Part shown: one piece after another, positions 3 through 56,941 of the stretch
How positions within the stretch are numbered: the stretch's first letter is position 1
How the letters are laid out: every line of letters begins with the position of its first letter
Program-made: the position numbers and the translations under genes
Assembly: GCF_014206815.1 (NCBI RefSeq)
Contig: NZ_JACHNP010000002.1
Location: 1,054,001 to 1,118,000, forward strand
Direction: 5' to 3'
Origin: Xanthomonas sp. F10
GTDB lineage: Bacteria > Pseudomonadota > Gammaproteobacteria > Xanthomonadales > Xanthomonadaceae
DNA: 64,000 nucleotides
Notes under the pieces: model-generated
What the model saw: only the letters and a program-made list of their open reading frames with translations
Database searches by the model: none
Told to the model about the DNA's origin: nothing

Positions 3-899
3 GCGATGATGGGGCCGATGGCGCGCGGCCGCGGCCTCGCCTTCGCCCTGGACAATGCCATGCCGCCGCACGTCACCGCGCGCGGCGACGCCACGCGGGT
101 GCGGCAGATCCTGCTGAACCTGCTCAACAACGCCATCAAGTTCACCGAGCACGGCAGCGTGCAGTTGCGGGTGGCGCCGCTGCAGCCGCAGCAGGGCGTG
201 CGCTTCGAGGTCGCCGATACCGGGCCGGGCATCAATGCCGAACAGCAGGCGCGGCTGTTCCAGCGCTTCGAGCAGGCCGACGGACCGCGTACCGCCGCGC
301 GCTACGGCGGCAGCGGCCTGGGCCTGGCGATCAGCCAGGAACTGGCGGTGGCGATGGGCGGACGCATCGAATTGCGCAGCCGCCTTGGTGCCGGCACCCG
401 CTTCCTGGTCGAGCTGCCGTTGCCGTGGACGCCCGAGCCGCTGCCGCAGGCGCCGCGCGACACCCGCGGCTCCAGCAGCGCCGCGACGCCGCAGCGGATC
501 CTGCTGGTCGAGGACGACCCGACCGTGGCCGAGGTGGTCGGCGGCCTGCTGCGCGCGCGCGGCCACCACGTCACCCATGCCGCGCACGCGCTGGCCGCGC
601 TGACCGAAGCGGCGGCGAGCAGCTTCGACATCGCGCTGCTGGATCTGGACCTGCCGGGCCTGGACGGCTTGGCCCTGGCGCGGCAGTTGCGCGCCTTCGG
701 CTACGGCATGCCGCTGATCGCGGTCACCGCCCGCGCCGACGCCGACGCCGAACCGCAGGCCCGCGCCGCCGGCTTCAGCGGCTTCCTGCGCAAACCGGTG
801 ACCGGCGAGATGCTGGCCGACGCGGTGGAGGGGGAGCCGGGACCGGGGACCCGGGACCCGGGACCCGGAGAGAGCGACGGCAACGGCGACCGTGCGTAG
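3..899 (+). CDS. Hybrid sensor histidine kinase/response regulator, C-terminal part (5' end outside window)
   Basis: This is the end of a membrane or soluble hybrid kinase; the reading frame is open to the left edge, so the true start is not in the window. The visible part has an HATPase_c domain with the N box (NLLNNAIKFTEHG), the G1 box (DTGPGI) and the G2 box (GSGLGLAI), then a receiver domain with RILLVEDD, the phosphoacceptor aspartate in LLDLDLPGLDG, and the conserved T and K in AVTAR and LRKPV. It autophosphorylates on a histidine and passes phosphate to its own receiver; the signal is unknown. The last 20 or so residues (GEPGPGTRDPGPG and on) are encoded by the heptamer repeat that continues past the stop, so the natural C-terminus has been extended by repeat DNA. 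Confidence 0.9.
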   Translation, partial: AMMGPMARGRGLAFALDNAMPPHVTARGDATRVRQILLNLLNNAIKFTEHGSVQLRVAPLQPQQGVRFEVADTGPGINAEQQARLFQRFEQADGPRTAARYGGSGLGLAISQELAVAMGGRIELRSRLGAGTRFLVELPLPWTPEPLPQAPRDTRGSSSAATPQRILLVEDDPTVAEVVGGLLRARGHHVTHAAHALAALTEAAASSFDIALLDLDLPGLDGLALARQLRAFGYGMPLIAVTARADADAEPQARAAGFSGFLRKPVTGEMLADAVEGEPGPGTRDPGPGESDGNGDRA

Positions 900-1147
900 G
901 CGGTGCGTGGTGCGGTTTCGCTACAGGAACGGCTTCGCCCGTACAGCCGAAAGCGCTCCGTTCTAGGCTTTTGCGGGTCCCGAGTCCCGAGTCCCGAGTC
1001 CCGGGTCCCGGGTCCCGGAGAGAGCGGCGGCAACGGCGAGCGCATGTAGGCGGTGCGCGGTGCGGTGCCGCTAGAGGAATGGCTTCGCCCGTACAGCCAA
1101 AAGCGCTCCGTTCTAGGCTTTTTCGGGTCCCGGGTCCCGGGTCCCGG
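836..1147. repeat. 150-bp tandem duplication with GGGTCCC/GGGACCC heptamer arrays
   Basis: Two imperfect copies lie 150 bp apart: the marker CGGAGAGAGCG starts at 866 and at 1016, and both copies carry GTAGGCGGTGCG, GGCTTCGCCCGTACAGCC and AAGCGCTCCGTTCTAGGC. The junctions are heptamer arrays at about 842-868, 975-1018 and 1125-1147 built of GGGTCCC, with GAGTCCC variants in the middle array. The heptamer is itself nearly palindromic. The first array lies inside the 3' end of the kinase gene; the last ends two bases before the stop codon of the minus-strand MFS gene. Confidence 0.85.
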
Positions 1148-1149
1148 CT

Positions 1150-2586
1150 TCACTCCGCCACCTCTTCCACCTGCTTCGGATGCGGCCGGGTATCCGGCAA
1201 CTGCCAGAAGATCAGCGTCGAGGTCAGGGTGATGGCGCCGACGCAGACGAAGGTCGCGTGCAGCGCCGCGGTGGCGCCGTGGGTATCGCCGAGGTGGGTG
1301 TTGAACGCCGCCAGCAGGCTGCCCGCGGCCGCGGCGCCGAAGCCGGTGGCCAGCATCATCACCATCGACAGCAGGCTGTTGCCGGCGCTGGCCTGGTCGC
1401 GGTCCAGGTCGCGCAGGGTCACCGTGTTCATGACGGTGAACTGCAGCGAGTTGACCGCGCCGAACAGCGCCAGCTGCAGCAGCCGCCAGCCCAGCGGCTG
1501 GCCGGCGTCGAACAGCAGGAAGCTGGCCATCGCGGTGCCGACCAGCACCGTGTTGGTCATCAGCACCCGACGGTAGCCGAAGTGTTCCACCAGCTTCACC
1601 GCGGCGCGCTTGGAGGCCATGCCGGCCAGCGCCACCGGGATCATCATCAGCCCGGCGTCCATCGGGCTCATGCCCAGGCCCACCTGCAGCAGCAGCGGGA
1701 TCAGGAACGGCATGCTGCCGCTGCCCACGCGCGAGAACAGGTTGCCGAGGATGCCGATGCGGAAGCTGACGACCTTGAACAGGTGCAGCGGGAACAGCGG
1801 CGCCGCCGCGTTGGCCGCGTGCAGCCAGTAGCCGATCAGTGCCGCCAGCCCGCCGATCGCCAGCAGCATCACGAAGGCGTGGCGCAGGCCCAGCTCGGAG
1901 ATGCCGTCCAGCGCCAGCGACAGCGCGACCATGCCGAAGGCCAGCATCGCGTAGCCGACCAGGTCGAAGCGGGTGCGCTGCTCGCCGTAGAAGTCCGGCA
2001 TGATCTTCAGCGCGGCGGCGAACCCGATCGCGCCGATCGGCAGGTTGATCAGGAACACCCAGTGCCAGGACGCCACCTGCACCAGCCAGCCGCCCAGGGT
2101 CGGCCCGACCAGCGGCCCGATCAGCGCGGGGATGGCGATGAAGCTCATCGCGCTGAGGAACTGCGCGCGCGACACCGAGCGCATCACCGCCAGCCGGCCG
2201 ACCGGCAGCAGCATCGCGCCGCCGATGCCCTGCAGCACGCGCGCGGCGACCAGATACGGCAGCCGCGGCGCCGCCGCGCACAGCAGCGAGCCGAGGGTGA
2301 ACAGCACGATCGCGGTCAGGAAGGTGCGGCGCGTGCCGTAGCGGTCGGCGATCCAGCCCGAGGCGGGAATGAACATCGCCACCGCCAGCGCATAGCTGAA
2401 GACCACCGACTGCATCTGCAGCGGGCTTTCGCCGAGGCTGCGCGCCATCGCCGGCAACGCGGTGTTGACGATGGTGGCATCGAGCATCTGCATGAAGATG
2501 GCCAGCGACACCAGCCACAGCAGCGGACGGAAACTGCGCGCGTTGGGAACGGCGATCGGATCGGAGGAGGGCGCGGACATCGGCAC
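1150..2586 (-). CDS. MFS multidrug efflux transporter, DHA2 (EmrB/MdtD-like) family
   Basis: A 478-residue polytopic inner-membrane protein with about 14 predicted membrane segments, the usual size and topology for 14-TMS drug:proton antiporters. The first segment carries the family motif LDATIVNTALPAM, the loop after TM2 has GWIADRYGTRR (MFS motif A), and motif C-like glycine/proline residues occur in PALIGPLVGPTLGGW. It resembles MdtD most, from memory of that family. The ORF opens with two nearby methionines (2586 and 2580); either could be the start. No adaptor gene is adjacent, so it probably works alone. The 3' end abuts a heptamer repeat array. Confidence 0.88.
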   Translation of the reverse strand: MPMSAPSSDPIAVPNARSFRPLLWLVSLAIFMQMLDATIVNTALPAMARSLGESPLQMQSVVFSYALAVAMFIPASGWIADRYGTRRTFLTAIVLFTLGSLLCAAAPRLPYLVAARVLQGIGGAMLLPVGRLAVMRSVSRAQFLSAMSFIAIPALIGPLVGPTLGGWLVQVASWHWVFLINLPIGAIGFAAALKIMPDFYGEQRTRFDLVGYAMLAFGMVALSLALDGISELGLRHAFVMLLAIGGLAALIGYWLHAANAAAPLFPLHLFKVVSFRIGILGNLFSRVGSGSMPFLIPLLLQVGLGMSPMDAGLMMIPVALAGMASKRAAVKLVEHFGYRRVLMTNTVLVGTAMASFLLFDAGQPLGWRLLQLALFGAVNSLQFTVMNTVTLRDLDRDQASAGNSLLSMVMMLATGFGAAAAGSLLAAFNTHLGDTHGATAALHATFVCVGAITLTSTLIFWQLPDTRPHPKQVEEVAE

Positions 2587-2732
2587 GCAGGGTGACGCGG
2601 GGGGAGCAATAGGATCGCGCAGATCGCGTCGCCGTGTCGTGCAGCCGCGTGCAGTGCGTGTGGGCGATGCAGCCCGCGCTCAGCGAGCGGCGCCGTGCAG
2701 GGCTACGCAGACGGCGGCATGCGCATGTTTGC

Positions 2733-2798
2733 GTCGGAGCGGCTTCAGCCGCGACGGGCATTCCCGCAACATCATGTCGCGGCTGAAGCCGCTCCTAC
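2733..2798. repeat. Palindromic repeat (GGAGCGGCTTCAGCCGCGAC family), copy 1
   Basis: Left arm starts GTCGGAGCGGCTTCAGCC, right arm is its inverted copy ending GAAGCCGCTCCTAC, with a short AT-containing middle. One mismatch in the left arm. The rest of the 2587-2900 interval holds a terminator hairpin and a heptamer array. Confidence 0.9.
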
Positions 2799-2825
2799 GA
2801 AGCGCAAAAGAGCGCAAAAGATTGA

Positions 2826-2853
2826 GCGCACGGTCAGATCGCCGACCGTGCGC
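2826..2853 (-). terminator. Hairpin downstream of hemE
   Basis: A perfect 10-bp stem (GCGCACGGTC / GACCGTGCGC) with an 8-nt loop, placed about 50 nt after the hemE stop on the minus strand. There is no clear U tract, so function as a terminator is inferred from position and stem strength. Confidence 0.5.
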
Positions 2854-2861
2854 GAGACTGC

Positions 2862-2897
2862 AATCCCGAATCCCGAATCCCGAATCCCGAATCCCGG
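2862..2897. repeat. Heptamer array, five perfect AATCCCG copies
   Basis: Five uninterrupted copies of AATCCCG followed by G, ending four bases before the hemE stop codon. On the hemE sense strand it reads GGGATTC repeated, that is four or more G3 runs spaced by four bases. Confidence 0.92.
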
Positions 2898-2900
2898 CGT

Positions 2901-3968
2901 TCAACCGCGCCGACTACGCCGCTGCACCGCCGCCACCAACGCCCCGACATGCTCGGGCTGCATGTCCGGCGACAGGCCGTGGCCGAGGTTGAACACATGG
3001 CCGTCCAGCGAGCCGCCGTTGCCGTCGGCATAGCTGCGCAGCACGCGCTGCACTTCGCGGTCGATCGCCTCCGGCGCGCCGTACAGCATCGCCGGGTCCA
3101 GGTTGCCCTGCAGGGCGACGCGGCCGCCGGTGCGGCGCGCGGCGTCGGCCAGGTCGATGGTCCAGTCCACGCCCACGCCTTCCGCACCGGAGCCGGCGAG
3201 TTCTTCCAGATAGAGCGCATTGCCCTTGCCGAACAGGATCAGCGGGGTGCGCTCGGCGCCGTCGCCGCGCGCCAGTTCGCGGGCGATGCGCTGCAGGTAG
3301 GGCAGGGAGAATTCGCGGTACATGGCCGGGCTCAGCACGCCGCCCCAGGTGTCGAACACCTGCAGCGCCTGCGCGCCGGCCGCGCGCTGCGCCGCCAGGT
3401 AGGCGATCACCGCGTCGGTGTTGACCGACAGCAGCGCGTGCAGCGCGGCCGGATCGTTCAGCGCCAGCGCCTTGATCCGCGCGTAGTTGTCGCTGCCGCC
3501 GCCCTCGACCATGTAGCAGGCCAGGGTCCAGGGGCTGCCGGAGAAGCCGATCAGCGGCACGCTGCCGTCCAGTTCGCGGCGGATCACCCGCACCGCGTCC
3601 ATCACGTAGCGCAGCTCGGTCTCCATGTCCGGCACGCCGAGCTTGGCGATCGCCGCCGCGTCGCGCACGGGATGGCGGAACTTGGGGCCTTCGCCTTCGA
3701 CGAAGTACAGCTCCAGTCCCATCGCATCGGGAATGGTGAGGATGTCCGAGAACAGGATCGCCGCGTCCAGCGGGAACCGCGCCAGCGGCTGCAGGGTCAC
3801 CTCGCAGGCCAGCTCCGGGGTCTTGGCCATGGCCAGGAAGCTGCCGGCGCGGGCGCGGGTGGCGCGGTACTCGGGCAGGTAGCGCCCGGCCTGGCGCATC
3901 AGCCACACGGGGGTCTGGTCCACGGGCTCGCGGCGCAGCGCGCGCAGCAGGCGGTCGTTCTTGAGCAT
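2901..3968 (-). CDS. hemE: Uroporphyrinogen decarboxylase
   Basis: Cytoplasmic enzyme of heme synthesis that removes four acetate carboxyls from uroporphyrinogen III to give coproporphyrinogen III. The N-terminal signature [16 protein letters not shown] and the second signature [19 protein letters not shown] are both intact, and 355 residues is the normal length. The frame is open further upstream, but the methionine at 3968 (MLKNDRLL) is preceded by AAGGA at good spacing and matches family starts. A small WGR-domain gene ends 10 bp upstream on the same strand, so the two are probably cotranscribed. The stop codon is followed directly by a heptamer array. Confidence 0.97.
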
Positions 3969-3978
3969 GGGGGATTCC

Positions 3979-4233
3979 TTAGCGCGGCGCGTCGGCGCCA
4001 CGGGTGAACATGACCTGGAAGCCGCGCTTGAGCTGGGCGTCGCGGGCTTTCTCGAAGGCGGCGTTGGCGTCTTCCTGCTGCAGATAGAGTTCGCGCCGCA
4101 GCTGCGCGCGGCCGCCGATCTGGCCGCTTTCGCGCAGCAGCTCCCAGCCGCCGAACAGGTCCGGCTGCAGGGTCAACTGCAGGTAGCGTGGCGGCTCGTT
4201 GCCGTCGGGGCGTTGCTGGAGGAAGACGCGCAT
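3979..4233 (-). CDS. Small WGR-domain protein
   Basis: An 84-residue protein made of almost nothing but a WGR-like module: a strand-rich start ([26 protein letters not shown]) with the family W-x-L-x-R-x-x-G-x-I-G pattern (here [14 protein letters not shown]) and a C-terminal helix ([18 protein letters not shown]). WGR modules occur in PARPs and in bacterial DNA-associated proteins, where they are thought to contact nucleic acid; the role of stand-alone copies is unknown. It lies just upstream of hemE, with 10 bp between them. Confidence 0.8.
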
Positions 4234-4299
4234 GCGCCGATTGTAGCGGGTGCCGGTGCGGGCGACGTGGCGCGGCCGGCGGAACGCAGCGGGCCGGCC

Positions 4300-5253
4300 T
4301 CAACCGGCACGGAAGCCGCGGCGGTAGGCCGAGGGCGGCACGCCCAGGGTGCGCGCGAACTGCTGGCGCAGCGCGCCGGCACTGCCGAAGCCGCAGCTGG
4401 CGGCGATCCGCTCCAGGGCCAGGTCGGTGCGCTCCAGCAGCTGCTGGGCGCGGACCAGGCGCTGGTGCGCCAGCCACTGCACCACGGTGGTCCCGGTCAC
4501 CCGGCGAAACTGCCGGGTGAAGCTGCGCCGGCTCATCCGCGCGTGCGCGGCCAGCGCGTCCAGGCGCAGCGGCTGCTCCAGCCGCTGCAGCATCCAGTCC
4601 AGGGTCGGGCCGAGCAGGGCGTCGCGGCGATTGGCCGGCAGCGGCTGTTCGACGTACTGCGCCTGCCCGCCCTGGCGGTGCGGCGCCACCACCAGGCGCC
4701 GGGCGATGCGGTTGGCGACCTCGGCGCCGTGGCGGCGCCGGACCAGATGCAGGCAGCAATCGATGCCGGCCACGGTGCCGGCCGAGGTCAGCACGTCGCC
4801 GTCGTCCACGTACAGCACGTCCGGCTGCAGCCGCACCTGCGGGTGGCGCTGCGCGAAGCGCGCCAGCGCCGCCCAGTGGGTGGTGGCGGGGCGGCCGTCG
4901 AGCAGGCCGGCGTCGGCCAGCACGAAGGTGCCCAGGCACAGGCCCACCACCTGCGCGCCGGCCGCGTGGGCGCGGCGCAGCGCCTGGCACAGCGCCGCCG
5001 GGGCCGGCTCGGCGGCATCGCGCCAGGACGGCACGATCACCGTGTCTGCGCCGTCCAGCGCGTCCAGCCCGTGCTGCACCTGGATGGCGAAGCCGGCATC
5101 GGTGCGCAGCAGGCCCGGCTCGGCGGCACACACGCGCAGGTCGAAGGCCGGCAGGTCGGTATCGGGCCGCGACTCGAACACCTGGCAGGGCACCGCGAGG
5201 TGGAAGGGGCTGATGCGGTCGAAGGCGACCACGGCGATGTGATGCGGCGACAT
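4300..5253 (-). CDS. GlxA/FtrA-type transcriptional regulator (DJ-1/PfpI domain + AraC HTH)
   Basis: A 317-residue regulator: residues 1 to about 170 form a DJ-1/PfpI-like domain (HIAVVAFDRISPFHLAVPCQVFE; VVGLCLGTFVLADAGLL), and the last 90 or so form an AraC-type double helix-turn-helix (HARMSRRSFTRQFRRVTG, then LERIAASCGFGSAGALRQQF). Such proteins bind a small ligand in the first domain and usually activate nearby catabolic genes. It is divergent from the isochorismatase-like hydrolase and cupin genes 92 bp away, the likely targets. An inverted repeat sits directly upstream of its start. Confidence 0.9.
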   Translation of the reverse strand: MSPHHIAVVAFDRISPFHLAVPCQVFESRPDTDLPAFDLRVCAAEPGLLRTDAGFAIQVQHGLDALDGADTVIVPSWRDAAEPAPAALCQALRRAHAAGAQVVGLCLGTFVLADAGLLDGRPATTHWAALARFAQRHPQVRLQPDVLYVDDGDVLTSAGTVAGIDCCLHLVRRRHGAEVANRIARRLVVAPHRQGGQAQYVEQPLPANRRDALLGPTLDWMLQRLEQPLRLDALAAHARMSRRSFTRQFRRVTGTTVVQWLAHQRLVRAQQLLERTDLALERIAASCGFGSAGALRQQFARTLGVPPSAYRRGFRAG

Positions 5254-5286
5254 GGCCCGATTTTAGCGAAAACGGTGTTTCGGGCC
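5254..5286. promoter_or_regulatory. Inverted repeat in the divergent GlxA/hydrolase promoter region
   Basis: GGCCCGA and TCGGGCC form perfect outer arms 33 bp overall, with an inner CGAAA / TTTCG pair. It touches the start codon of the regulator gene. The position suits an operator or leader hairpin for autoregulation; this is inference only. Confidence 0.4.
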
Positions 5287-5345
5287 ACTCGTCGCCGCGC
5301 ACCCGCCCGCCGACACTGGCCGCCTCTTCGCTCTGGAGCCACCGC

Positions 5346-5969
5346 ATGTCTTCTCCCCGCCGCGCCCTGCTGGTCATCGATGTCCAGAACGCCTACTTCG
5401 ACGGCGCGCTGCCCATCGCCCATCCGCCGGTGGCGCAGTCGCTGCCCAAGCTCCTGCAGGCGATGGACGCGGCCCAGGCGCACGGCGTGCCGGTGCTGGT
5501 GGTGCAGCACACCGCGCCGGCGCCGGCGCCGGTCTTCGCCGACGGCAGCCCCGGTTGGGACCTGCACCCGCAGGTCGCGGCGCGGCCGCACACGCGGCTG
5601 CTGCGCAAGACCAAGCCCAGCGTGTTCGCCGGCACCGACCTGGCCGACTGGCTGCAGCAGCAGGCGATCGACACCCTCACCGTGGCCGGCTACATGACCC
5701 ACAACTGCAACGCCTCCACCGTGTACGAGGCCTTCCACCGCGGGCTGGCGGTGGAAGTGCTGGGCGACGCCAGCGGTGCGCTGCCGTACGCCAACGCCGC
5801 CGGCCAGGCCAGCGCCGAGGAGATCCACCGGGTGTTCGGAGTGGTGTTCCACAGCAATTTCGCCGCGGTCGCCGACACCGCGCAGTGGATCGCGGCGGTG
5901 CAGGCGGGGCGGCCGCTGCCGCGCGACAACGTGCTGCAGTCCAGCCGCCGCGCGCGGGGCCTGGCATGA
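5346..5969 (+). CDS. Isochorismatase-family cysteine hydrolase
   Basis: A 207-residue cytoplasmic hydrolase of the isochorismatase/nicotinamidase fold. The Asp-Lys-Cys triad is visible: D12 in LLVIDVQNAYF, a lysine in LLRKTKPSVFAGTDL (K88 or K90) and C121 in AGYMTHNCNAST. The family cleaves amides or vinyl ethers; the substrate cannot be told from sequence. Its stop codon overlaps the start of the cupin gene (ATGA), so translation is probably coupled, and the divergent GlxA-type regulator likely controls both. Confidence 0.9.
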   Translation: MSSPRRALLVIDVQNAYFDGALPIAHPPVAQSLPKLLQAMDAAQAHGVPVLVVQHTAPAPAPVFADGSPGWDLHPQVAARPHTRLLRKTKPSVFAGTDLADWLQQQAIDTLTVAGYMTHNCNASTVYEAFHRGLAVEVLGDASGALPYANAAGQASAEEIHRVFGVVFHSNFAAVADTAQWIAAVQAGRPLPRDNVLQSSRRARGLA

Positions 5970-6289
5970 GCGGCATGCCGCGGGTGCTGCGGGCGCGCGA
6001 CTTCACCGGCACCCGTGCCTGGGAGGCGCTGCCGGTGGCGATGCTGGACGGGATCGGCGTGCGCATCCACTGGGCCGACCAACCCTATGTCTGGCACGTC
6101 AACGACGGCCAGGAGGTGTTCGTGGTGCTGGACGGACAGGTGCAGATGCGCTGGCGCGTGTACGGCGTCGAGCAGACGGCATTGCTGCAGGCCGGCGACG
6201 TGTTCCATGCGCCGGAAGGCACCGAGCACGTGGCGCACCCGCAGGGCGCGGCGCGGGTGCTGGTGGTGGAGCGCGACGGCAGTCCGTGA
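5966..6289 (+). CDS. Cupin-domain protein
   Basis: A 107-residue single cupin barrel. It has the turn MLDGIGVRIHWADQPYVWHVNDGQEVFVVLDGQ, where H and E fit the first cupin motif, and AGDVFHAPEGTEHVAHP, with the second-motif histidine. Such small cupins bind metal or a small ligand. The start is fixed by the ATGA overlap with the hydrolase gene, which also suggests a shared pathway. Function unassigned. Confidence 0.85.
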   Translation: MSGMPRVLRARDFTGTRAWEALPVAMLDGIGVRIHWADQPYVWHVNDGQEVFVVLDGQVQMRWRVYGVEQTALLQAGDVFHAPEGTEHVAHPQGAARVLVVERDGSP

Positions 6290-6623
6290 GCGTTCGGGCG
6301 CACTCCTGGCCGGCGCGCGCTGCGGTCCTCGCCCACGCGGTGGCGGAGACGTGGTTCCGTCGATGACGTGTGCAGAGCGCGGCGCATACCGCACCTGATG
6401 CTGTGCGTTCTATCACGGAGCCATCACTGTCGATCTGGCGTCATTGGGACAGGCTATGCCGCTGCGTGCGCACAGAGATCCTGGTGTCACGGCATCGCCA
6501 TTCACCACGAGTGCGGACGCGGCCGGCATGCGAAGCCAGAGCGATGGGCGGTTCCCTGGGCAGCACCTTGATGTCGGCGCGGGACGGGATCCCGCGCGGC
6601 CTGCTGCCACCTTCGACGATGTC
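6290..6623. other. Intergenic stretch before the RND operon
   Basis: No convincing gene, hairpin or repeat was seen in these 334 bp. The RND adaptor frame is open back to a TTG at 6444 and has an ATG at 6456 preceded by GGGACAGG, so part of this stretch may be coding. Confidence 0.5.
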
Positions 6624-21295: not shown

Positions 21296-21453
21296 CGGCG
21301 TTCTCCGGCTCAGAGTGGCGAGCACAACGTTGCGCGCGGTAGCCAGCGGGTGCGGGACGGCGCGCCGGAAGCGCAGTGTACAAGCGGTTCATGGGCATGC
21401 CGAGCACCGTCCGCGCCCGCCTGGCGGTTGCGCAGCGGTGGTGTCGGCGGCGC

Positions 21454-25586: not shown

Positions 25587-25688
25587 CGGGGATTGGGGAT
25601 TCGGGATTGGGGATTCGCACAAGCGAGTCTCTCCGATCCTAGGATGCCCGCCGTTACCAATCCCCACTCCCGACTCCCCACTCCCGGC
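25587..25688. repeat. Facing heptamer arrays between pilT and pilU
   Basis: G-rich arm GGGGATTGGGGATTCGGG with further copies at 25588-25617, starting directly after the pilT stop; C-rich inverted arm (AATCCCCACTCCCGACTCCC) at 25658-25688, just before the pilU ribosome site. The arms can pair over about 25 bp with a 40-nt loop. Confidence 0.88.
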
Positions 25689-48768: not shown

Positions 48769-48800
48769 GGCGGCGCGTTGCATCGGTGTGTCGTGCCGTT

Positions 48801-48823: not shown

Positions 48824-48968
48824 AGGGGGCGATGGCCGATGGCGTCGCGCGCGTCGCGACTGACGTCGTTTCCCACAGGGGGCTTCGCCCGCGTCATATG
48901 TGCTGCCGTAGCAGCGGCGCCTGTTGCTTTTCATGGAGCAACCGCAGCAGGTGTCCGCGGTAAGGCTT

Positions 48969-49044
48969 GTCGCGGCTGAAGCCGCTCCTACAGTGGAATT
49001 CTGCGCGCTGTCGGTGCCGTCGTAGGAGCGGCTTCAGCCGCGAC
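48969..49044. repeat. Palindromic repeat arms in outward order (copy 6)
   Basis: The right-type arm GTCGCGGCTGAAGCCGCTCC (48969-48991) comes first, then 30 bp, then the left-type arm GTAGGAGCGGCTTCAGCCGC (49022-49044): the reverse of the usual order. Together with the repeat at 48801 it fills most of 48769-49134, where no gene is seen. Confidence 0.88.
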
Positions 49045-49134
49045 GCGTTGCGATGGACGGTCGCTGCACGCCAGGCCTTGGCGCCCGTCCCGGGCGCCTG
49101 GCCATGGGCAATTCACCAAGTGCACGCGCGCCGC

Positions 49135-50403
49135 TCAGCCCAGCAGCAGGCGCGCGCCCAACGCACACAGCAGCGCCGGCGGCATCACCAGCGCGCCGAC
49201 CTTGAGGAAGCGCCAGAAGCCCACGTCCTCGCCTTCGCGGCGGATCGCGGTCAGCCACAGGATGGTCGCCAGCGAGCCGGTGATCGACAGGTTCGGGCCC
49301 AGGTCCACGCCGATCAGCAGCGCGTCCACCACCAATTGCGGCGGCTGCGCCTGGGCGACGGTGGTGCTGGCGATCAGGCCGGCCGGCAGGTTGTTCATCA
49401 GGTTCGAGCCGAACGCCAGCAGGGTGCCGGCGACGCCGGCGGTGGCCTGCGGCGAGTGCGCGGCGGCGTCGGCCAGGGTGCGTGCGAGCAGGCCGATCAC
49501 GCCGGTGCGCGACAGCGCCTCCACCAGTACGAACAGGCCAGCCACCAGCGGCAGCACCGCCCACGACACCGCCTTGGCCATCGGCAGCGGCGACTGCCGG
49601 CCGCCCAGGCAGACCGCGCCGAGGGTGGCCAGGCCGGCCAGGCAGGTCGGCAGGCCCAGGTCCAGACCCAGCGCGGAGACGCCGACCAGCAGCACTGCGG
49701 TGGCGAGGATGCCGACCAGGGCGAAGGTGCCGCCGCGGGTCAACGGCACCGTGTCCACGCGCGCGGCGCAGCGGCCGGTCAGGTCCTTGCGCTCGGCCCA
49801 GCGCAGCATCACGAAGGTCACCGCGATCGCCAGCAGCGACGGCAGCGCGAACGCGGCCATCCACGCGCCCAGGGTCGGCATCTTGCCGCCGTACAGCACC
49901 AGGTTGGCGGGGTTGGAGATCGGCAGCACGAAGCTGGCGGCGTTGGCGATCAGCGCGCAGGCGAACAGCAGCGGCAGCGGCTTGGCCCCGGCCTTGCGCG
50001 CGGCCGCGTACACCGCCGGGGTGAGCACTACCGCGGTGGCGTCATTGGACAGGAACGCGGTGACCACGATGCCGACGCCGAACACCAGCGCGAACAGGCG
50101 CTGGGGCGAGCCCTTGGCCAGATTCACCGCATGCATCGCCACCCAGTCGAACAGGCCTTCGGCGCGCGCGGTTTCCGACAACAGCATCATGCCGATCAGG
50201 AACAGGTAGACGTCCAGGCCCTTGAGTGCCGCCTGCCAGGCCTCGCCGCCAGGCATCAGCCCCAACGCCATCAGCAGCAGCGCGCCACCCACCGCCCAGC
50301 ACGCCTCGGGCAGCTTGAACGGCCGCGCGATCACCCCGGCGGTGGCCAGCGCGCAGATGCCCCAGGTGGCGAGATTGGCCGTGTGCGCGCCGGGCATGCT
50401 CAT
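49135..50403 (-). CDS. ArsB/NhaD-type anion transporter (probable arsenite efflux)
   Basis: A 422-residue inner-membrane protein with about 11 helices of the ion-transporter superfamily. Family segments: LDVYLFLIGMMLLSETARAEGLFDW, FLSNDATAVVLTPAVYAA with the N-D pair of the first hairpin, and FGSNLMNNLPAGLIAST in the second half, LGPNLSITGSLATILWL near the end. ArsB exports arsenite or antimonite; relatives carry other anions. No arsR or arsC lies beside it, so the substrate is uncertain. Start at 50403 or 50397. Confidence 0.85.
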   Translation of the reverse strand: MSMPGAHTANLATWGICALATAGVIARPFKLPEACWAVGGALLLMALGLMPGGEAWQAALKGLDVYLFLIGMMLLSETARAEGLFDWVAMHAVNLAKGSPQRLFALVFGVGIVVTAFLSNDATAVVLTPAVYAAARKAGAKPLPLLFACALIANAASFVLPISNPANLVLYGGKMPTLGAWMAAFALPSLLAIAVTFVMLRWAERKDLTGRCAARVDTVPLTRGGTFALVGILATAVLLVGVSALGLDLGLPTCLAGLATLGAVCLGGRQSPLPMAKAVSWAVLPLVAGLFVLVEALSRTGVIGLLARTLADAAAHSPQATAGVAGTLLAFGSNLMNNLPAGLIASTTVAQAQPPQLVVDALLIGVDLGPNLSITGSLATILWLTAIRREGEDVGFWRFLKVGALVMPPALLCALGARLLLG

Positions 50404-50877
50404 GCCGCCGCTGCCGTGGCGCGGGCAGGCAGACGCACGCGCGAGGAGGCCGCAGGGGCAGGGCAGGGGCGGGCAGCGGGGGAGGGCACGGGCATGGGGC
50501 GTCGGGCAGCGGAGTCCGAGGGGCGTGCAGGATAGCAGCGGGACAGGCCCAACCCAGGTCGGCGCGAACGGCCCGGCGCTTGCGGTTTAGCTTGCGTAGA
50601 CGCGCCTTGCGTGGCGCATTCGGCACATCTTCCGCACGACGCGATGCGGTTGCGGTGCCGCGCACGCTGTCGGAACTGTGGTGCTCCTCGGCGAGGCTAG
50701 CCAGCACGCGGCACGTGCCATGCGCGAACGGCGTCGTCTTTCGTCAGCCGCGATCGCGGCGGATCCCGGGAGGGCGCGCGAGCGCCGTTCCTGCAGAACC
50801 GCACCGACCTTCGCCCGCTTCACCCATGGCGCGCCGCCATGGACGCCAGCCATGCGCCCCACGGCCGTGTGGCGGCC
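50404..50877. other. Intergenic stretch without recognised features
   Basis: 474 bp of ordinary GC-rich sequence. No hairpin of note, repeat-family member or gene was seen. Confidence 0.5.
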
Positions 50878-51327
50878 TTACCCCAGATGACGCGCGATCC
50901 ATCCTTGCACGAACGCCACCGGCCCGGTCCGTGGCGGTGGCGTCAGCCCGGCGCCGCGCACGAAGCCGGCCGCAGCCTGGGCCAGCGCCTGGTTGGCGCG
51001 GCGCAGCGCCTGCTGCGCGGCCGCCTGCTGCTGGCGCAACTGCACCAGGTGCAGCGAGGGGCGCCCAGGTGGCGCGAACTTCTGGTCCCGGCGCAGCGCA
51101 TCGGCAGACAGGCGGGTGACTTGCGTGGCCTGGTGCAGGGCGTCCAGCGCGTCCAGCACCTGCAACAGCCAGCGCCCGCTGTCGCTGAGCTGCAAGGTCG
51201 CGGCGTCGTCCTGTGTCGGCACCAGCAGCGGCGGAACGGCCGCGCCGGCGATCGCCGCGGCGCTCGGATCCAGGGCGCGCAGGCGGGCGTGGAAGGCGGT
51301 TTGCGATGCGGAAGGGGTGGTCGCCAT
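50878..51327 (-). CDS. Hypothetical protein, alanine/glutamine-rich helical
   Basis: A 149-residue soluble protein of unknown family. A proline/alanine-rich first part is followed by helices (SGRWLLQVLDALDALHQATQ; LVQLRQQQAAAQQALRRANQ) and ends PVAFVQGWIARHLG. No signal peptide or membrane segment. No recognised motif; codon use is like its neighbours, so it is probably a real gene. Confidence 0.6.
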   Translation of the reverse strand: MATTPSASQTAFHARLRALDPSAAAIAGAAVPPLLVPTQDDAATLQLSDSGRWLLQVLDALDALHQATQVTRLSADALRRDQKFAPPGRPSLHLVQLRQQQAAAQQALRRANQALAQAAAGFVRGAGLTPPPRTGPVAFVQGWIARHLG

Positions 51328-51513
51328 GCTTGGCCTGTACGCGAAAGCGCGGACTGTACGCGGTTTGGTGGGCTCGCTGCACAGGCCGCGACGACGCGGC
51401 GGCAGATCGTATGGACGCCCTTGGATGAACGCTGAGCGTTGCGTCGATGCGGGCCCTGGTTGCGCGGACTGTCGTGGGCACCACCTGGCACGCGCGGCGA
51501 TGGTGGAAGCTGC

Positions 51514-52332
51514 TTACTTGTCGGCGGTGGTCTCGTTGCCGGCGTCGCTGCGCTTCTGCGCGAACAGCCACTGCCACATCTTCGGATCGCGGTAGGTGGC
51601 ATCCCAGGCATTGTGGTTGCCCTGCGGGTATTCGGTGTAGCGCACGTCGGCGTCGACGTTCTTGAGCGCACGCACGATCTTGCGGTCGTCGTGCGGCAGC
51701 ACCACGTCGTCCTGGGCGCCGTGGAAGATCCACACCGGCACGTGCCGCAGGCGCTGCGCCAGCGCCGTATACGGATCGGCCAGATAGGCCACCGGCGTGA
51801 CCACCAGATACTCGCGGTCCTCGTGCGGGGACAGGATCGCGCCGCAGATCGGCACCAGCGCGGCGAAGCGCTGCGGTTGCTTCAGGGCGATCTCCCAGGT
51901 GCCGTAGCCGCCCATCGACATGCCGGTCAGGTAGGTGCGCTGCGGGTCGCCGTTGAACTCGGCGCTGCTGTCGTCCAGCGCCTGCAGCGCCATGGTCGCG
52001 TTGACGCCGTTCCACTCCTCGCCATCGGGCGCCTGCGGCATCACCACCAGCGCCGGGAAATCGGCCAGGTGGCGGCGCAGGTACGGGCCCAGCCCGGCGG
52101 TGGTCTGGTCGCGGCCGTCGTCGCCGCGCTCGCCGGAGCCGTGCAGGAACAGCACCACCGGCACCGGGCCCTGGCGATGCGCTGGCGCCGGCACGAATAC
52201 CTGGTAGCGGTAGACGCGTCCGTCGAGGGTGAGCTGGCGGCCGACAAAGTGGCCGGTGGCCGGGTCGCTGGGCAAGCTGCTGCATCCGACCATCGACAGG
52301 CACAGCAGAAGCAGCAACGAACGCATCGACAT
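51514..52332 (-). CDS. Lipoprotein alpha/beta hydrolase (esterase/phospholipase-like)
   Basis: A 272-residue hydrolase with a lipoprotein signal (SLLLLLCLSMVGCSS). The oxyanion region VVLFLHGSGERGDDGRDQ, the nucleophile elbow LTGMSMGGYGTWE, an aspartate in FHGAQDDVVLP and the histidine in YPQGNHNAWDATY make a complete triad. Such proteins resemble PHB-depolymerase/feruloyl-esterase-like or DLH-type carboxylesterases. It would sit in a membrane facing the periplasm or outside. Two ATG codons two apart (52332, 52324-52326) are possible starts. Confidence 0.88.
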   Translation of the reverse strand: MSMRSLLLLLCLSMVGCSSLPSDPATGHFVGRQLTLDGRVYRYQVFVPAPAHRQGPVPVVLFLHGSGERGDDGRDQTTAGLGPYLRRHLADFPALVVMPQAPDGEEWNGVNATMALQALDDSSAEFNGDPQRTYLTGMSMGGYGTWEIALKQPQRFAALVPICGAILSPHEDREYLVVTPVAYLADPYTALAQRLRHVPVWIFHGAQDDVVLPHDDRKIVRALKNVDADVRYTEYPQGNHNAWDATYRDPKMWQWLFAQKRSDAGNETTADK

Positions 52333-52592
52333 GGCCGGCCCTCGGGTGGGAAGGCCGCAGTATCGTGGCCTGGGCGTCTCCACGACAACCCGGGTAAGGG
52401 CGGCGGACATGCGGCAGTCAGCCGACGGGCGGCGCAGCGTGCTCGCGCCATGCAGGGGCGGATGGCGGCAGCGGGCGGTGGATGCGCCCGATCCGCCGCG
52501 CACCGATCGCGGCCGGCAGGCGCGCCCGCCGATCACGGCTGCGCGACGAACGCAGCGGCCGCTTCGAGCCGCGCCCGCCGCTCGGACACGCG

Positions 52593-53951
52593 CTACAGCA
52601 GGACCAGGGTGGCCAGGCCGAGGAAGCTGAGGAAGCCCATGACGTCGGTCAGCGTGGTCAGGATCACCCCGCCGGCCAATGCCGGATCGAAGCCCAGGCG
52701 CTTGAGCGTCAACGGCACCAGCACGCCACCCAGGGCGGCGGTGAGCAGGTTGATGGTCAGCGCCGAGCCGATCACCAGCGACAGCAGCGGCTGCTTGAAC
52801 CACAGCAGCACGATCAGGCCCAGGCCGATGCCCAGCGACAGGCCGTTGATCAGGGCCACCGCCAATTCCTTGCGCAGCAGCACGATCACGTTGGACGCGC
52901 CGATCTGGCCCAGCGCCAGGCCGCGCACCATCAGTGCCAGGACCTGGGTGCCGGCGTTGCCGCCCATGCCGGCTACGATCGGCATCAGCGCGGCCAGCGC
53001 CACCAGCTTGGCGATGGTGCCCTCGAACTGGCCGACCACGCTGGAGGCGATGAAGGCGGTGCCGAGGTTGATCGTCAGCCACAGCAGGCGGCGGCGGAAC
53101 GCGCGCCGCACCGGGCTGAACAGGTCCTCGTCCTCGTCCAGGCCGGCGGCGCTCATCGCCTGGTGCTCGGCCTGGTCGCGGATGATGTCGACCACGTCGT
53201 CGATGGTGATGCGGCCGAGCAGGATGTTGTTGTCGTCCACCACCGGCGCGGAGATCCAGTCGTGGTCGGAGAACTGCCGCGCGACCTCGTCGGCGCCTTC
53301 GCCGACGTCGATGGCCGGCTGCTCGTCGTCGATCAGCCGGTTGATCGGGGTGGAGTCCTCGTGGGTGACCAGCGCCGCCAGCGACACCCGCCCCAGGTAT
53401 TGGTGGCGGCGGCTGACCACGAACAGATGGTCGGTGTGGTCCGGCAGTTCGCCGCGCAGGCGCAGGTAGCGCAGCACCACGTCGACGTTGACGTCGGCGC
53501 GCACGGTGACCACGTCCGGGTTCATCAGGCGGCCGGCGCTGTCCTCGGGATACGACAGCACCTGCTCGAGCCGCTCGCGGTTCTCGCGGTCCATCGACTT
53601 GAGCACTTCGTCGATGACCGTGTCCGGCAGGTCCTCGACCAGGTTGGCGAGGTCGTCGATGTCCAGGTCTTCGACCGCGGCGACGATTTCGTCCGGGTCC
53701 ATGTCCGCGAGCAGGCTCTCGCGCACTTCTTCGCCGACGTGGACCAGCACCTCGCCGTCGTCCTCCGGATCGACCAGCCCCCACACCACTTCGCGCTTGC
53801 CGGGCGGCAGCGATTCCAGCAGGTTGCCGATCTCGGCCGGCGCCAGCGTATTGACCAGTCGCCGCACCGGGCCCAGGCGCCCGCTATCCAGCGCATCGGA
53901 CAGCATGCGCAGCTGCCGCGCGGTCTTGTCGTGGCGGACGGCGTCGGCCAT
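52593..53951 (-). CDS. mgtE: Magnesium transporter MgtE
   Basis: A 452-residue Mg channel: the N-terminal helical MgtE_N domain (TLAPAEIGNLLESLPPGKRE; PDEIVAAVEDLDIDDLANLV), two CBS domains (MNPDVVTVRADVNVDVVLRY; RQFSDHDWISAPVVDDNNIL) with the connecting helix, and five membrane helices, including the pore segment with MPIVAGMGGNAGTQVLAL. The magnesium-sensing acidic residues of the cytosolic part are conserved in type. It lies downstream of ptsI after the repeat region. Confidence 0.96.
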   Translation of the reverse strand: MADAVRHDKTARQLRMLSDALDSGRLGPVRRLVNTLAPAEIGNLLESLPPGKREVVWGLVDPEDDGEVLVHVGEEVRESLLADMDPDEIVAAVEDLDIDDLANLVEDLPDTVIDEVLKSMDRENRERLEQVLSYPEDSAGRLMNPDVVTVRADVNVDVVLRYLRLRGELPDHTDHLFVVSRRHQYLGRVSLAALVTHEDSTPINRLIDDEQPAIDVGEGADEVARQFSDHDWISAPVVDDNNILLGRITIDDVVDIIRDQAEHQAMSAAGLDEDEDLFSPVRRAFRRRLLWLTINLGTAFIASSVVGQFEGTIAKLVALAALMPIVAGMGGNAGTQVLALMVRGLALGQIGASNVIVLLRKELAVALINGLSLGIGLGLIVLLWFKQPLLSLVIGSALTINLLTAALGGVLVPLTLKRLGFDPALAGGVILTTLTDVMGFLSFLGLATLVLL

Positions 53952-54051
53952 GCGCTGCTCCCTTGGGGTGAGGCCGCGCTCCGGAGAAACGCGGTCGGTC
54001 AGATGTTCATCCCAACATTATCGCCTGCATGTTGCGGGAAGCACAGTGGAC

Positions 54052-54087
54052 GGCCGGGATTGGGGAGTCGGGATTGGGGATTCGCGG
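54052..54087. repeat. Heptamer array, G-rich arm (mgtE side)
   Basis: GCCGGGATTGGGGAGTCGGG with two more copies on the plus strand. It faces the C-rich array at 54286, with a palindromic repeat between. Confidence 0.88.
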
Positions 54088-54113
54088 GTTTCCGCATGCG
54101 GACGTCTGCGCAT

Positions 54114-54178
54114 GTAGGAGCGGCTTCAGCCGCGACGGCATTCCCGGGAACGCCCGTCGCGGCTGAAGCCGCTCCTAC
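54114..54178. repeat. Palindromic repeat, copy 7
   Basis: GTAGGAGCGGCTTCAGCCGC and the inverted arm ending GAAGCCGCTCCTAC, nested between two facing heptamer arrays in 53952-54382, where there is no gene. Confidence 0.92.
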
Positions 54179-54285
54179 AGAAGATCGATGGGTTTCTTGA
54201 CGAGAGAGAGCGCTGTGCACGCAGAGACCAAGCGCCGCGCCTTTCAGAAAATCGCTTGCCTGCGATCAGAGGAAGGACATCCTGC

Positions 54286-54379
54286 CCAATCCCCAATCCC
54301 CAATCCCCAATCCCCAATATCGAATCCCCAATATCGAATCCCCAATATCGAATCCCCAATATCGAATCCCCAATCCCGG
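54286..54379. repeat. Heptamer array with 14-mer higher-order repeat (ptsI side)
   Basis: Four to five CCCCAAT heptamers, then four copies of the 14-mer ATCGAATCCCCAAT, ending CCCGGC four bases before the ptsI stop codon. On the ptsI sense strand it is G-rich. Confidence 0.92.
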
Positions 54380-54382
54380 CTC

Positions 54383-56113
54383 TCAAGCCAGCCAGCGCTC
54401 GATGCCCTTGCGGTCGCGGGCCTGCAGCAGTTTGGCGCCGCGCTGGCGCAGGGCCTGCAGGTCGGTGTCGCGGATCACCTGGCGCACTTCCAGCATCGTC
54501 GCCGGGTGCAGGCTGAACTCGCGCAGCCCCAGCGCCAGCAGCATCGGCGTCAAGGTCGGGTCGCCGGCGATTTCGCCGCACACCGCCACCGGTTTGCCGT
54601 GGGCCTGGCCGGTGGCGATCACCTGCGCGATCAGCCGCAGCACCGCCGGATGCAGCGGCGAATACAGCTCGGCCACCGCCTCGTTGTTGCGGTCGGCGGC
54701 GAGCAGGTACTGCACCAGGTCGTTGGTGCCGATCGACAGGAAGTCGATGGTGTCGATGAAGGTATCCAGGGCCAGCGCCGCCGCCGGCACTTCGATCATC
54801 GCGCCGAGTTGCACCTGCTCGGCGATGGCATGGCCATCGCGGCGCAGTTGCGCCGCGATGCGCTTGAGGTGGCGGCGCATCGCCAGCAGTTCCTCGCGCG
54901 CGCTGACCATCGGCACCAGCACCCGCACCGGGCCGTAGGCGGAGGCGCGCAGCAGCGCACGCAACTGGGTGTCGGAGACCTTGGGCCGGGCCAGCGACAG
55001 GCGTACGCCGCGCAGCCCCAGCGCCGGGTTTTCCTCATTGCTCATGGTCAGGCCGGTGCGATCGGCCTTGTCCGCGCCCAGGTCCAGGGTGCGGATGGTC
55101 ACCGGCCGCCCGCTCATGCCCAGCACGGCGTCGCGGTAGGTGTGGAACTGTTCTTCCTCGTCGGGCAGCGCGTCGCGCTGCAGGAACAGGAATTCGGTGC
55201 GGTACAGGCCCAGGCCGTCGGCGCCGAGCGCATGCGCGCGGGTGACGTCGTCGCGCGACTCGGCGTTGGCCAGCAAGGTGATGTCCACGCCATCGCGGGT
55301 GCGGCTGGGCTTGGAGCGCAGCTTGCCCAGGCTGCGCTGCAGCTTGGCCTGCTCGCGCACGCGGCTGCGGTAGTCGCGCAGGTCGTCCGGGGTCGGGTCG
55401 ACCAGCACCGCGCCCTGGGTGCCGTCGATGATCAGCACGTCGCCGTCGTTGATCTTCTGCAGCGCGTCGGCGACGCCGACCACCAGCGGCAGGTGCAGGC
55501 TGCGCGCCAGGATCGCGCTGTGCGACAGGGTGCTGCCGGCGCTGGTGACGATGCCGACCACGCCCTGCGCCTGCAGTTGCGCCAGTTCCGACGGCGCCAC
55601 GTTCTCGCACACCAGGATCTCGCCGGCCAGGCCTTCGCTGTCCGGCTGGCGTTTCTGCAGGAACGCATGGATCCGCCCGATCACATGGTCCAGATCGTCC
55701 ATGCGGCTCTTGAGGTAGGCGTCCTCCATGTCGTCGAACACGGTCGCCAGGCGGTCGCGCTGCAGGCGCAGCGCGTAGTCGGCGCTGTAGCGGCCGGTGC
55801 GGATCAGTTCGTCCAGGCCGTGCAGCAGCTCCGGGTCGTCGAGCAGCAGCGCGTGCAGGTCGAGGAATTCGCCGACCTCCTTGGCCAGGGCGCCGTGCAG
55901 GCGTTGGCGCAGGCCGTGCATCTCCTCGCGCGCGGCGTCCACCGCGCGGTGCAGGCGATCGAGTTCCTCGGGGATCTGCGCGGCGCCGATGCGTTGCTCG
56001 GCCACCTCCAGCGCATGCGGCAGGCGCACCCGCGCCCGGCCCAGGGCATTGCCGCGCGAAGCGCCATGGCCGGCGATGCGCACGCTCACCGCGCGTGCCC
56101 CGTGCGGCGGCAC
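54383..56113 (-). CDS. ptsI: Phosphoenolpyruvate-protein phosphotransferase (PTS enzyme I)
   Basis: Cytoplasmic enzyme that takes phosphate from PEP and passes it to HPr. The phospho-histidine is His198 in SAGSTLSHSAILARSL, the PEP-binding signature DFLSIGTNDLVQYLLAADR and the catalytic cysteine in VAVCGEIAGDP are intact. 576 residues, no GAF domain, so it is the sugar-type EI and not PtsP. The ATG at 56113 gives a short extra leader; a GTG at 56089 is nearer to the usual start. Last gene of the PTS group; no EIIB/EIIC follows. Confidence 0.95.
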   Translation of the reverse strand: MPPHGARAVSVRIAGHGASRGNALGRARVRLPHALEVAEQRIGAAQIPEELDRLHRAVDAAREEMHGLRQRLHGALAKEVGEFLDLHALLLDDPELLHGLDELIRTGRYSADYALRLQRDRLATVFDDMEDAYLKSRMDDLDHVIGRIHAFLQKRQPDSEGLAGEILVCENVAPSELAQLQAQGVVGIVTSAGSTLSHSAILARSLHLPLVVGVADALQKINDGDVLIIDGTQGAVLVDPTPDDLRDYRSRVREQAKLQRSLGKLRSKPSRTRDGVDITLLANAESRDDVTRAHALGADGLGLYRTEFLFLQRDALPDEEEQFHTYRDAVLGMSGRPVTIRTLDLGADKADRTGLTMSNEENPALGLRGVRLSLARPKVSDTQLRALLRASAYGPVRVLVPMVSAREELLAMRRHLKRIAAQLRRDGHAIAEQVQLGAMIEVPAAALALDTFIDTIDFLSIGTNDLVQYLLAADRNNEAVAELYSPLHPAVLRLIAQVIATGQAHGKPVAVCGEIAGDPTLTPMLLALGLREFSLHPATMLEVRQVIRDTDLQALRQRGAKLLQARDRKGIERWLA

Positions 56114-56147
56114 CGCGTCCCTGCCTGCGGCCGCCGGCGGCGCATGC

Positions 56148-56417
56148 TCAGCTGTCCTCGTCGAAGCGCCGCTCGAACAGGTCGACCACGGCCTTGAGCG
56201 CCTCGGCTTCGTCGGCGCCGTCCACCCGCACCGTCACCGGCGTGCCTTGCGCAGCGGCCAGCAGCATCACGCCCATGATGCTCTTGGCGTTGACCTCGCG
56301 GCCCTTGGCCGCCAGCGTGGCATTGCAGCGGAACGAGGACAGCGTCTGCACCAGCTTGGCGGTGGCGCGGGCGTGCAGGCCGAGGCGGTTGGAGACCAGC
56401 AGTTCGCGTTCAAGCAT
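56148..56417 (-). CDS. ptsH: Phosphocarrier protein HPr
   Basis: An 89-residue phosphocarrier. His15 in NRLGLHARATAK takes phosphate from EI; Ser46 in NAKSIMGVMLLA is the HPr-kinase site, matching the presence of hprK four genes upstream. Overlaps the end of the EIIA gene by eight bases (start 56417, EIIA stop 56410) and precedes ptsI by 34 bp. Confidence 0.95.
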   Translation of the reverse strand: MLERELLVSNRLGLHARATAKLVQTLSSFRCNATLAAKGREVNAKSIMGVMLLAAAQGTPVTVRVDGADEAEALKAVVDLFERRFDEDS

Positions 56418-56802
56418 CGTCGATCACCACGCCGTTGCGCGAGCCGGCGGCGGCGGTCGCGGGCAACTGCTCCAGTCCTTGTTCGGGGTAGTTCATGATC
56501 CGCAGCAGCATCGGCAGGCTCAACGCCGAGACGCGCCGCACCGGCGTGCCCAGGCGCGCCAGCCGCGCGGCGAGATTGCTCGGGCTGGCGCCATACAGAT
56601 CCGTCACCACCAGCACGCCATCGCCGTCGTCCACCCGCCGCAACGCCGCCGACGCCTGCGGCAGCAGCGCATCCAGGTCGGCATCGAACGGCACGTCGAA
56701 CGCTTCGGTCTTCAGCGGCAACTGCCGCAACAGTCCGGTCGCCACGCGCAACAGCGCCGTGCCGATCCCGGGATGAGTGATGAGGAGAATGCCGCAAGCC
56801 AT
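56410..56802 (-). CDS. PTS EIIA domain protein, mannose/fructose family
   Basis: A 130-residue single EIIA-Man-type domain. The phospho-histidine His10 is in LITHPGIGTALL, and VLVVTDLYGASPSNLAARLA is the family core. No EIIB, EIIC or EIID is nearby, so it is more likely a regulatory phosphate acceptor than part of a sugar permease. It follows rapZ after a 145-bp gap that holds facing heptamer arrays. Confidence 0.93.
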   Translation of the reverse strand: MACGILLITHPGIGTALLRVATGLLRQLPLKTEAFDVPFDADLDALLPQASAALRRVDDGDGVLVVTDLYGASPSNLAARLARLGTPVRRVSALSLPMLLRIMNYPEQGLEQLPATAAAGSRNGVVIDDA

Positions 56803-56849
56803 GGGAGAACGTTAACAGGTCAGGCAGGGCACAGGGAATGGCTGGGGGG

Positions 56850-56941
56850 AGCCGGGATTGGGAATTCGGGATTGGGGATCCGCAAGAGCCAGCGCAATGC
56901 CGCTTTTGCCAATCCCGAATCCCCAATCCCGAATCCCGGCT
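56850..56941. repeat. Facing heptamer arrays between rapZ and the EIIA gene
   Basis: G-rich arm GCCGGGATTGGGAATTCGGG and onward at 56850-56883; C-rich arm AATCCCGAATCCCCAATCCC and onward at 56909-56941. The arms pair over about 30 bp with a 25-nt loop. The C-rich arm ends seven bases before the rapZ stop codon. Confidence 0.9.

Follow-up and report, generated by a model that had tools for sequence, protein, structure and literature searches.

Heptamer Arrays at the Gene Ends of the Window

The window analyzed here, a 64,000-nt stretch of the genome of Xanthomonas sp. F10, carries short arrays of G-rich heptamers between its genes, five of which follow the stop codons of a major facilitator superfamily (MFS) transporter gene, hemE, pilT, ptsI, and rapZ. 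These identities follow NCBIfam names (MdtD-type MFS transporter, hemE, PilT/PilU family, PTS_I_fam, and RapZ), and the RapZ of the window shares 98% identity with its counterpart in Xanthomonas sp. NCPPB 1128 and 94% with the one in X. bonasiae. A sequence-only reading had singled out the same five arrays, each starting within about 10 bases of a stop codon, and had proposed that they are either a 3'-end RNA element, possibly a G-quadruplex, or a mobile repeat that targets stop codons. The five exist where it placed them and as near to the stops, and the opening GCCGGGA is indeed present in all but the pilT array, which opens CGGGGA, but a fixed array definition finds ten arrays in the window, five of them overlooked before (Table 1). 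Each array is an arm of the G-rich heptamer repeat that Rehm et al. described in Xanthomonas in 2015; the observation is correct and careful, and concerns a repeat family already published. New here, and worth following, are the tightness of a few nucleotides with which the arms approach stop codons and the joint renewal of the two arms of a pair.

Table 1. Heptamer arrays in the window, with the spans given by the sequence-only reading where it named the array
Span	Strand	Array	Position	Span in sequence-only reading
832..863	+	GGGACCC-type arm	in 3' end of hybrid kinase/response regulator reading frame (6-899 +)	
978..1016	-	GGGACCC/GGGACTC arm	midpoint of 150-bp tandem duplication	
1128..1145	-	GGGACCC arm of three units	directly after MFS stop (1150-1152, minus)	1125-1147
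2864..2895	-	GGGATTC array with five G runs	after hemE stop (2901-2903, minus)	2862-2897
25589..25613	+	GGGATTG/C arm	two bases after pilT stop	25588-25617
25661..25685	-	pilT partner arm	ends just ahead of pilU Shine-Dalgarno and ATG (25705)	
54056..54080	+	ptsI partner arm, mgtE-ptsI gap	faces mgtE start at 104 nt	
54286..54379	-	ptsI array	after ptsI stop (54383-54385, minus)	54286-54379
56847..56878	+	rapZ partner arm	in rapZ element	
56913..56937	-	GGGATTN arm	after rapZ stop (56948-56950, minus)	56909-56941

The five arrays are G-rich on the sense strand of the preceding gene, as had been described, and the GGGACCC unit of the MFS array is equally rich in G and C. The canonical quadruplex motif (four runs of three G with loops of 1–7 bases) is present in four of the five arrays named earlier, whereas the MFS array has only three GGG runs. 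The pilT element reads, in order, stop, CGGGGATTGGGGATTC..., the reverse-complement type ...CACTCCC, a Shine-Dalgarno sequence, and the ATG of pilU, and the rapZ pair reads GCCGGGATTCGGG... and ...CCCAATCCCGGC. The ptsI array is built of GGGGATT units on its inner side and of GGGGATTCGATATT 14-mers on its outer side, with 10-base spacers between runs of four G in the outer half and short loops only in the inner part; the 14-mer is a higher-order expansion on top of the heptamer. The hemE array has no partner arm above threshold, and beyond it lies a pair of GTAG-type repetitive extragenic palindromes (REPs), a class of Xanthomonadaceae palindromes that go with a REP-associated tyrosine transposase (RAYT). 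Palindromes of this type (GTCGCGGCTGAAGCCGCTCCTAC) occur at about 2774-2797 and at 54153-54180, near or within heptamer elements.

Arrays Abut Stop Codons in a Sample of the Genome

We assembled a sample from 59 stretches of 20 kb, spaced evenly along this genome, less the one that overlaps the window (L166), plus the window itself, which together amount to 1.224 Mb or about 25% of the genome, and called 950 genes in it with a simple Markov caller made for this analysis. The sample contains 105 arrays, whereas three sequences simulated with a first-order Markov model gave 3, 4, and 4, and GCCGGGATTNGGGATTNGGGA, with up to two mismatches, has 343 matches genome-wide versus a single match for the reversed pattern. 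Arrays most often have four units (58 of 105), which we count in favor of the post-stop element discussed below; 76 arrays have at least four units and 26 have three. Distances were counted for the 90 intergenic arrays, with those inside called genes and one at the edge of a stretch excluded. These comprise 70 NT-type arrays, 18 of the GGGACCC type, and 2 remaining, the commonest units of this genome being GGGATTG and GGGATTC together with the GGGACCC class, and GGGAATC being rare (5 units in the sample).

Taking the 5' end on the G-rich strand as the outer end of an array, we found that, of the 51 outer ends that face a stop, 44 are no more than 15 nt from it (two overlap the called gene), with a median of 6 nt, whereas only 2 of the 51 inner ends facing a stop come within 20 nt. 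The 39 outer ends facing a start are less tightly placed: 15 come within 20 nt and 24 within 50 nt, and the median is 30 nt. When the elements were slid at random within their own gaps, a mean of 27.4 of 49 ends fell within 20 nt in 2,000 runs, with a maximum of 36, compared with the 44 of 49 observed. The GTAG-type REPs of the same sample, 97 exact copies, provide a second comparison: of the outermost palindromes, 2 of 95 lie within 15 nt of a stop and 3 of 95 within 20 nt (median 113), and taking the nearest stop for each copy, with both members of a pair counted, gives 3 of 92 within 20 nt (median 95).

The enrichment at stops and the strand bias on which the sequence-only reading depended were both found in the genome sample: in a per-gene test of arrays of two or more units, 38 of 851 genes have a sense array that begins 0–20 nt after the stop and 3 of 851 an antisense one. 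Inside the gene, 80–60 nt before its end, there is a single sense array, and further downstream the bias turns over, with 4 sense versus 10 antisense arrays in the interval from +60 nt and 3 versus 10 in that from +120 nt. At starts, the nearest 20 nt upstream hold 15 antisense versus 2 sense arrays, and the interval 120–100 nt upstream holds 8 sense versus 5 antisense. This pattern follows from a mirror geometry in which the arms face outward, G-rich when read away from the gene that they abut, at starts as at stops; the reversal further downstream of stops is what inverted pairs predict. Although the proximity to stops and the strand bias are therefore real, the bias, coming from outward-facing arms of which many are in inverted pairs, is not independent evidence for a quadruplex in mRNA, and taken alone it is no valid evidence for one. 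The mirror geometry does not account for the tight fit to stop codons. Several far arms end a few bases from a start codon with no obvious Shine-Dalgarno sequence between, and others are seemingly followed by a TATAAT-like box, both as seen by eye and with our own start calls.

Anatomy of Arms and Pairs

Read outward from the gene, an arm often begins with GCC, continues with about four GGGANTN or GGGACCC units, and ends in a CGCAAAAGC-like tip. The outer junction leans to GCC, with C at -1 in 18 of 18 GGGACCC arrays, and the inner junction leans to TTCGCAAAAGCGG in the NT type and to CCCGGAAAAGC in the CC type, each sequence giving the majority base at every position, with a majority that is stronger at some positions than at others. 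Roughly half of the gaps with arrays hold two arms that face each other across a locus-specific core and fill much of the intergenic space: among 59 such gaps, 26 have a G-rich and then a C-rich array (convergent), one is GGC, two are CC, one is GG, and 29 have a single array. Adjacent arrays (n = 31) are convergent in 27 cases, same-oriented in 4, and divergent in none. The 25 cores compared (of 27 pairs; length 15–300 bp, median 75 bp) share only 12–18 nt near the arms, or REP sequence. In 25 of 27 pairs the two arms share one broad type (19 NT/NT and 6 CC/CC), where independent draws from the 70:18:2 mix would by our own arithmetic agree in about 65%. A loose, degenerate partner was found for 10 of 29 single arrays versus 5 of 29 same-orientation controls, a difference too weak to use.

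Folding predictions for the RNA gave -61.2 kcal/mol (z -4.7) for the pilT element and -62.2 kcal/mol (z -5.3) for the rapZ element; the single hemE arm reached a z of -3.5, mostly owed to another hairpin.

Conservation and Turnover of the Arrays in Relatives

We compared four syntenic genomes and found an array in at least one of them in 22 gaps, a count in which two gaps with arrays that look chance-like by eye (41 and 117) are kept, and in none of them in 157 comparable gaps; in 14 of the 22 the array is present in every genome compared. At orthologous sites the unit type (ATT, AAT, or ACC) differs between species, and it has usually changed in both arms together. The types agree in 29 of 29 unambiguous convergent pairs of the four genomes, which are orthologous copies and not independent cases; 8 pairs with AGT or other units were set aside, and 9 adjacent array pairs are not convergent. 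Part of the core is, by eye, apparently common to the ATT and AAT versions, and the arms have therefore changed, at least in part, around a core that was kept.

An array is kept at the pilT stop in 18 of 20 genomes of the genus, and in the 17 in which both arms were detected the pilT-pilU types are AT/AT (6), TT/TT (6), CC/CC (3), CT/CT (1), and TT/GT (1, this genome). In 14 distinct sequences, and with no correction for relatedness, the two arms are identical at 22.4 of 25 positions on average, whereas shuffled partners reach 19.4 (p = 0.0002). At the rapZ stop, 27 of the 29 best-matching loci, all from Xanthomonas, have an array, which starts exactly 6 nt after the stop in 20 of the 27, and this offset persists while the DNA behind the array diverges. 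Sorted by title, all 80 rapZ loci give an array in 28 of 33 from Xanthomonas and in 2 of 47 others, both weak two-unit cases. One record, L113, is titled Bacillus subtilis SK7B5 and encodes a RapZ 82% identical to the Xanthomonas protein; it is probably mislabelled or contaminated.

In an order-wide draw the ATT-type pattern occurred in 33 of 151 genomes, with counts that long arrays inflate and a pattern nearly blind to other types. A genome from another family of the order (G080), in 20 regions picked around matches, has 45 arrays, of which the 4 inside called genes were left out of the distance counts, and 17 convergent pairs among 24 gaps. This chosen sample shows the same arm anatomy and the same hugging of stops, with 21 of 24 stop-facing outer ends within 20 nt; two of the 21 overlap the called gene. 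A very long GGGATTC array is present in another relative from outside the family (G067:C1:130029-130210).

No Support Found for a Mobile Element

The proposal of a mobile repeat that targets stop codons found no support in these comparisons. No clean empty site and no target duplication were recognized at the 22 array-bearing gaps of the four genomes, a small set in which the alignments of 19 were read by eye. TGA, tried as a target, is not preferred, ending 31 of 42 array-bearing genes versus 700 of 907 overall. Of the features of a miniature inverted-repeat transposable element (MITE), inverted ends with common internal sequence, the arrays have only the former, their arms being inverted around 25 cores without a common core. 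Nor are they GTAG/CGTC-tagged palindromes linked to a RAYT: the sole Y1 gene (RAYT-like, PF01797) found in the genome (L009 1270-2070, G000:C3) has GTAG-type REPs on both sides and no heptamers. With the only Y1 gene found lying among REPs, no empty site recognized, and no common core, we rejected a transposase-borne element.

Comparison with Known Repeats

Rehm et al. described 186 and 183 heptamer repeats in two Xanthomonas species, usually of four units, with 70 and 75 convergent pairs, lying no more than 50 bp after a stop in sense orientation or ahead of a start in antisense orientation (PMC4692102). They reported K+-dependent quadruplex formation of such oligonucleotides by circular dichroism, transcription of most repeats, transcripts that start or end in quadruplex-capable repeats more often than in controls, and 83% site conservation between the two species, with pilU among the repeat-associated genes (PMC4692102). 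The arrays of the present genome resemble those repeats in genus, unit, intergenic bias, and site conservation; here too the arrays are intergenic and lie near stops in sense or near starts in antisense orientation, the mode is four units, and adjacent arrays are convergent rather than divergent. They differ in their dominant units, GGGATTG and GGGATTC, and in a GGGACCC class that stands outside the published definition, which asks for at least two GGGANTN units and at least one GGGAATC; of the 90 intergenic arrays 70 are of the NT type, and GGGAATC is scarce. The portions of that paper drawn on bin distances at 50 bp and give neither the common arm tips nor the renewal of type in both arms that we describe; they state that the repeats are absent from other gamma-proteobacteria and leave their functional role to be elucidated (PMC4692102). 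A repeat-finding paper of 2018, which lists 25 heptamer repeats for one X. oryzae genome, likewise calls the function of heptamers unclear in the part consulted (PMC6344855), and among the matches listed in a literature search whose coverage leaves out most subscription journals there was no later study of their role.

Two other repeat classes invite comparison. The GTAG-type REPs share the spacers with the heptamers and sometimes lie inside the core of a heptamer pair, but their outermost copies keep a median of 113 nt from the stop and it is they, not the heptamers, that flank the RAYT gene. The heptanucleotide repeats of Nostoc and Calothrix (STRR) resemble the arrays in having, in Nostoc, GGGGATT-like heptamers. 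According to the portion of Rehm et al. used, however, they form few inverted pairs (PMC4692102).

The stop-proximal REP sequences of Escherichia coli, reportedly the subject of a 2015 study by Liang, Rudd and Deutscher, are a further parallel. REPs less than 16 nt from a stop cause ribosome stalling and lower translation, according to the part consulted of a paper that cites that study (PMC12306157), and the heptamer arms likewise bring a repeat that can fold to within 15 nt of a stop. The arms are unlike these REPs in not being a REP-type palindrome and in having no RAYT link that we could find, and a far larger share of them is so placed, 44 of 51 stop-facing ends versus 446 of 4,072 E. coli REPs (PMC12306157).

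What the Arrays May Do

The comparisons show where the arrays lie, how they are oriented and paired, that some sites are conserved, and that the type turns over; a 3'-end RNA element is the best reading that remains. Because 44 of 51 stop-facing ends lie in the range of the reported REP effect, we favor a post-stop RNA structure that would act as stop-proximal REPs do, a function that we regard as plausible but evenly poised between acceptance and doubt. The G-rich arm would emerge in the mRNA directly behind the stop and fold alone, possibly as a quadruplex, and where a partner arm exists the two may fold into a long hairpin. Such a structure, at most about 15 nt from the stop, could act as a barrier, slowing the release of ribosomes as well as 3'-5' decay and keeping adjacent cistrons apart, and the type of the arms would be renewed in both jointly by arm-to-arm conversion or by exchange of the whole spacer. 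Where Rehm et al. left the role open, the stop fit, the contrast with REPs of the same genome, and the joint renewal of arms turn a loosely conceived quadruplex repeat into a testable post-stop element. A bolder version assigns the function to the arm rather than to the pair. The arm would be a polar mark of gene ends, about 45 bp long and present in at least two families of the order, that stays 2–15 nt behind stops despite turnover of type and sets ribosome release and mRNA 3' decay for about 1 gene in 20, while arms repair each other to the same type. We consider this version rather unlikely.

Several observations weigh against a post-stop structure. The gene ends on which the distances depend are those of our own caller, 14 of the 105 arrays fall inside called genes, and starts also serve as a boundary for outer ends. 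A single array occupies 29 of 59 gaps, a C-rich partner is found within 300 nt at only 3 of 27 rapZ sites, and the hairpin is therefore not generally required. The rapZ array is not present in X. albilineans and Xanthomonas sp. GPE 39, and the hemE array, of 2–6 units, is present in only 6 of 20 genus genomes. Within one unit type, true pairs are barely more complementary than shuffled partners (p = 0.03, 0.28, 0.71, and 0.84, and 0.34 in a further test), which speaks against base-by-base selection for pairing; compensation between arms at that level, with little or no excess over shuffled partners, was rejected.

The patchy hemE array and the fine complementarity at or near the shuffled level would equally suit the main rival, an old inverted repeat, MITE-like or born of slippage, that merely persists in spacers and has no function, its tight fit resulting from the loss of gene-damaging copies and the erosion of other spacer DNA. 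Such a passive repeat would allow the free variation seen in unit number and type, and divergent gaps are depleted, with 5 of 59 array-bearing gaps compared with 136 of 599. The elements also fill so much of their spacers that sliding alone leaves 27 of the 49 ends no more than 20 nt from the stop, yet the observed hugging exceeds all 2,000 slides, REPs in the spacers of this sample show no such closeness to stops, and the 6-nt offset at rapZ outlasts the DNA behind it. We judge the passive repeat a real possibility that falls somewhat on the doubtful side. That the arrays instead act through quadruplex formation as such, as an RNA or DNA switch, seems to us quite unlikely. The prevalence of at least four units with a mode of four, the circular dichroism of Rehm et al. 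(PMC4692102), and the transcription of the G arm ahead of its partner are consistent with it, but GGGACCC units (18 of 90 intergenic arrays) can self-pair, three-unit arrays are common, the MFS array contains only three G runs, where both arms exist a hairpin of about -61 kcal/mol would compete, and a review, as far as consulted, cites a report that RNA quadruplexes are depleted in bacteria (PMC8191793). A transcription terminator between genes would account for a strong stem after the stop and for the transcript ends and starts that Rehm et al. found in quadruplex-capable repeats (PMC4692102). We hold it to be very unlikely and rejected it as a candidate, since no intrinsic terminator, a GC stem followed by a T run, occurs in 53900-57100, the only region scanned, and the start-facing arm often leaves no room for a promoter (of 39 ends, 15 come within 20 nt and 24 within 50 nt), although a promoter could lie in the core.

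Further Features of the Window

The segment 850-1146 is a 150-bp tandem duplication of a GGGACCC array with its core. The hybrid kinase/response regulator has a reading frame that runs into the first of these arrays and terminates within the core, and the arm at 832..863 has a counterpart, full or degenerate, in two of three relatives. At the gathering score, Rfam gave no match to the arrays; its sole match in the window lies elsewhere, at 21317-21392 (-), where the Xanthomonas small RNA sX9 scores barely above that threshold.

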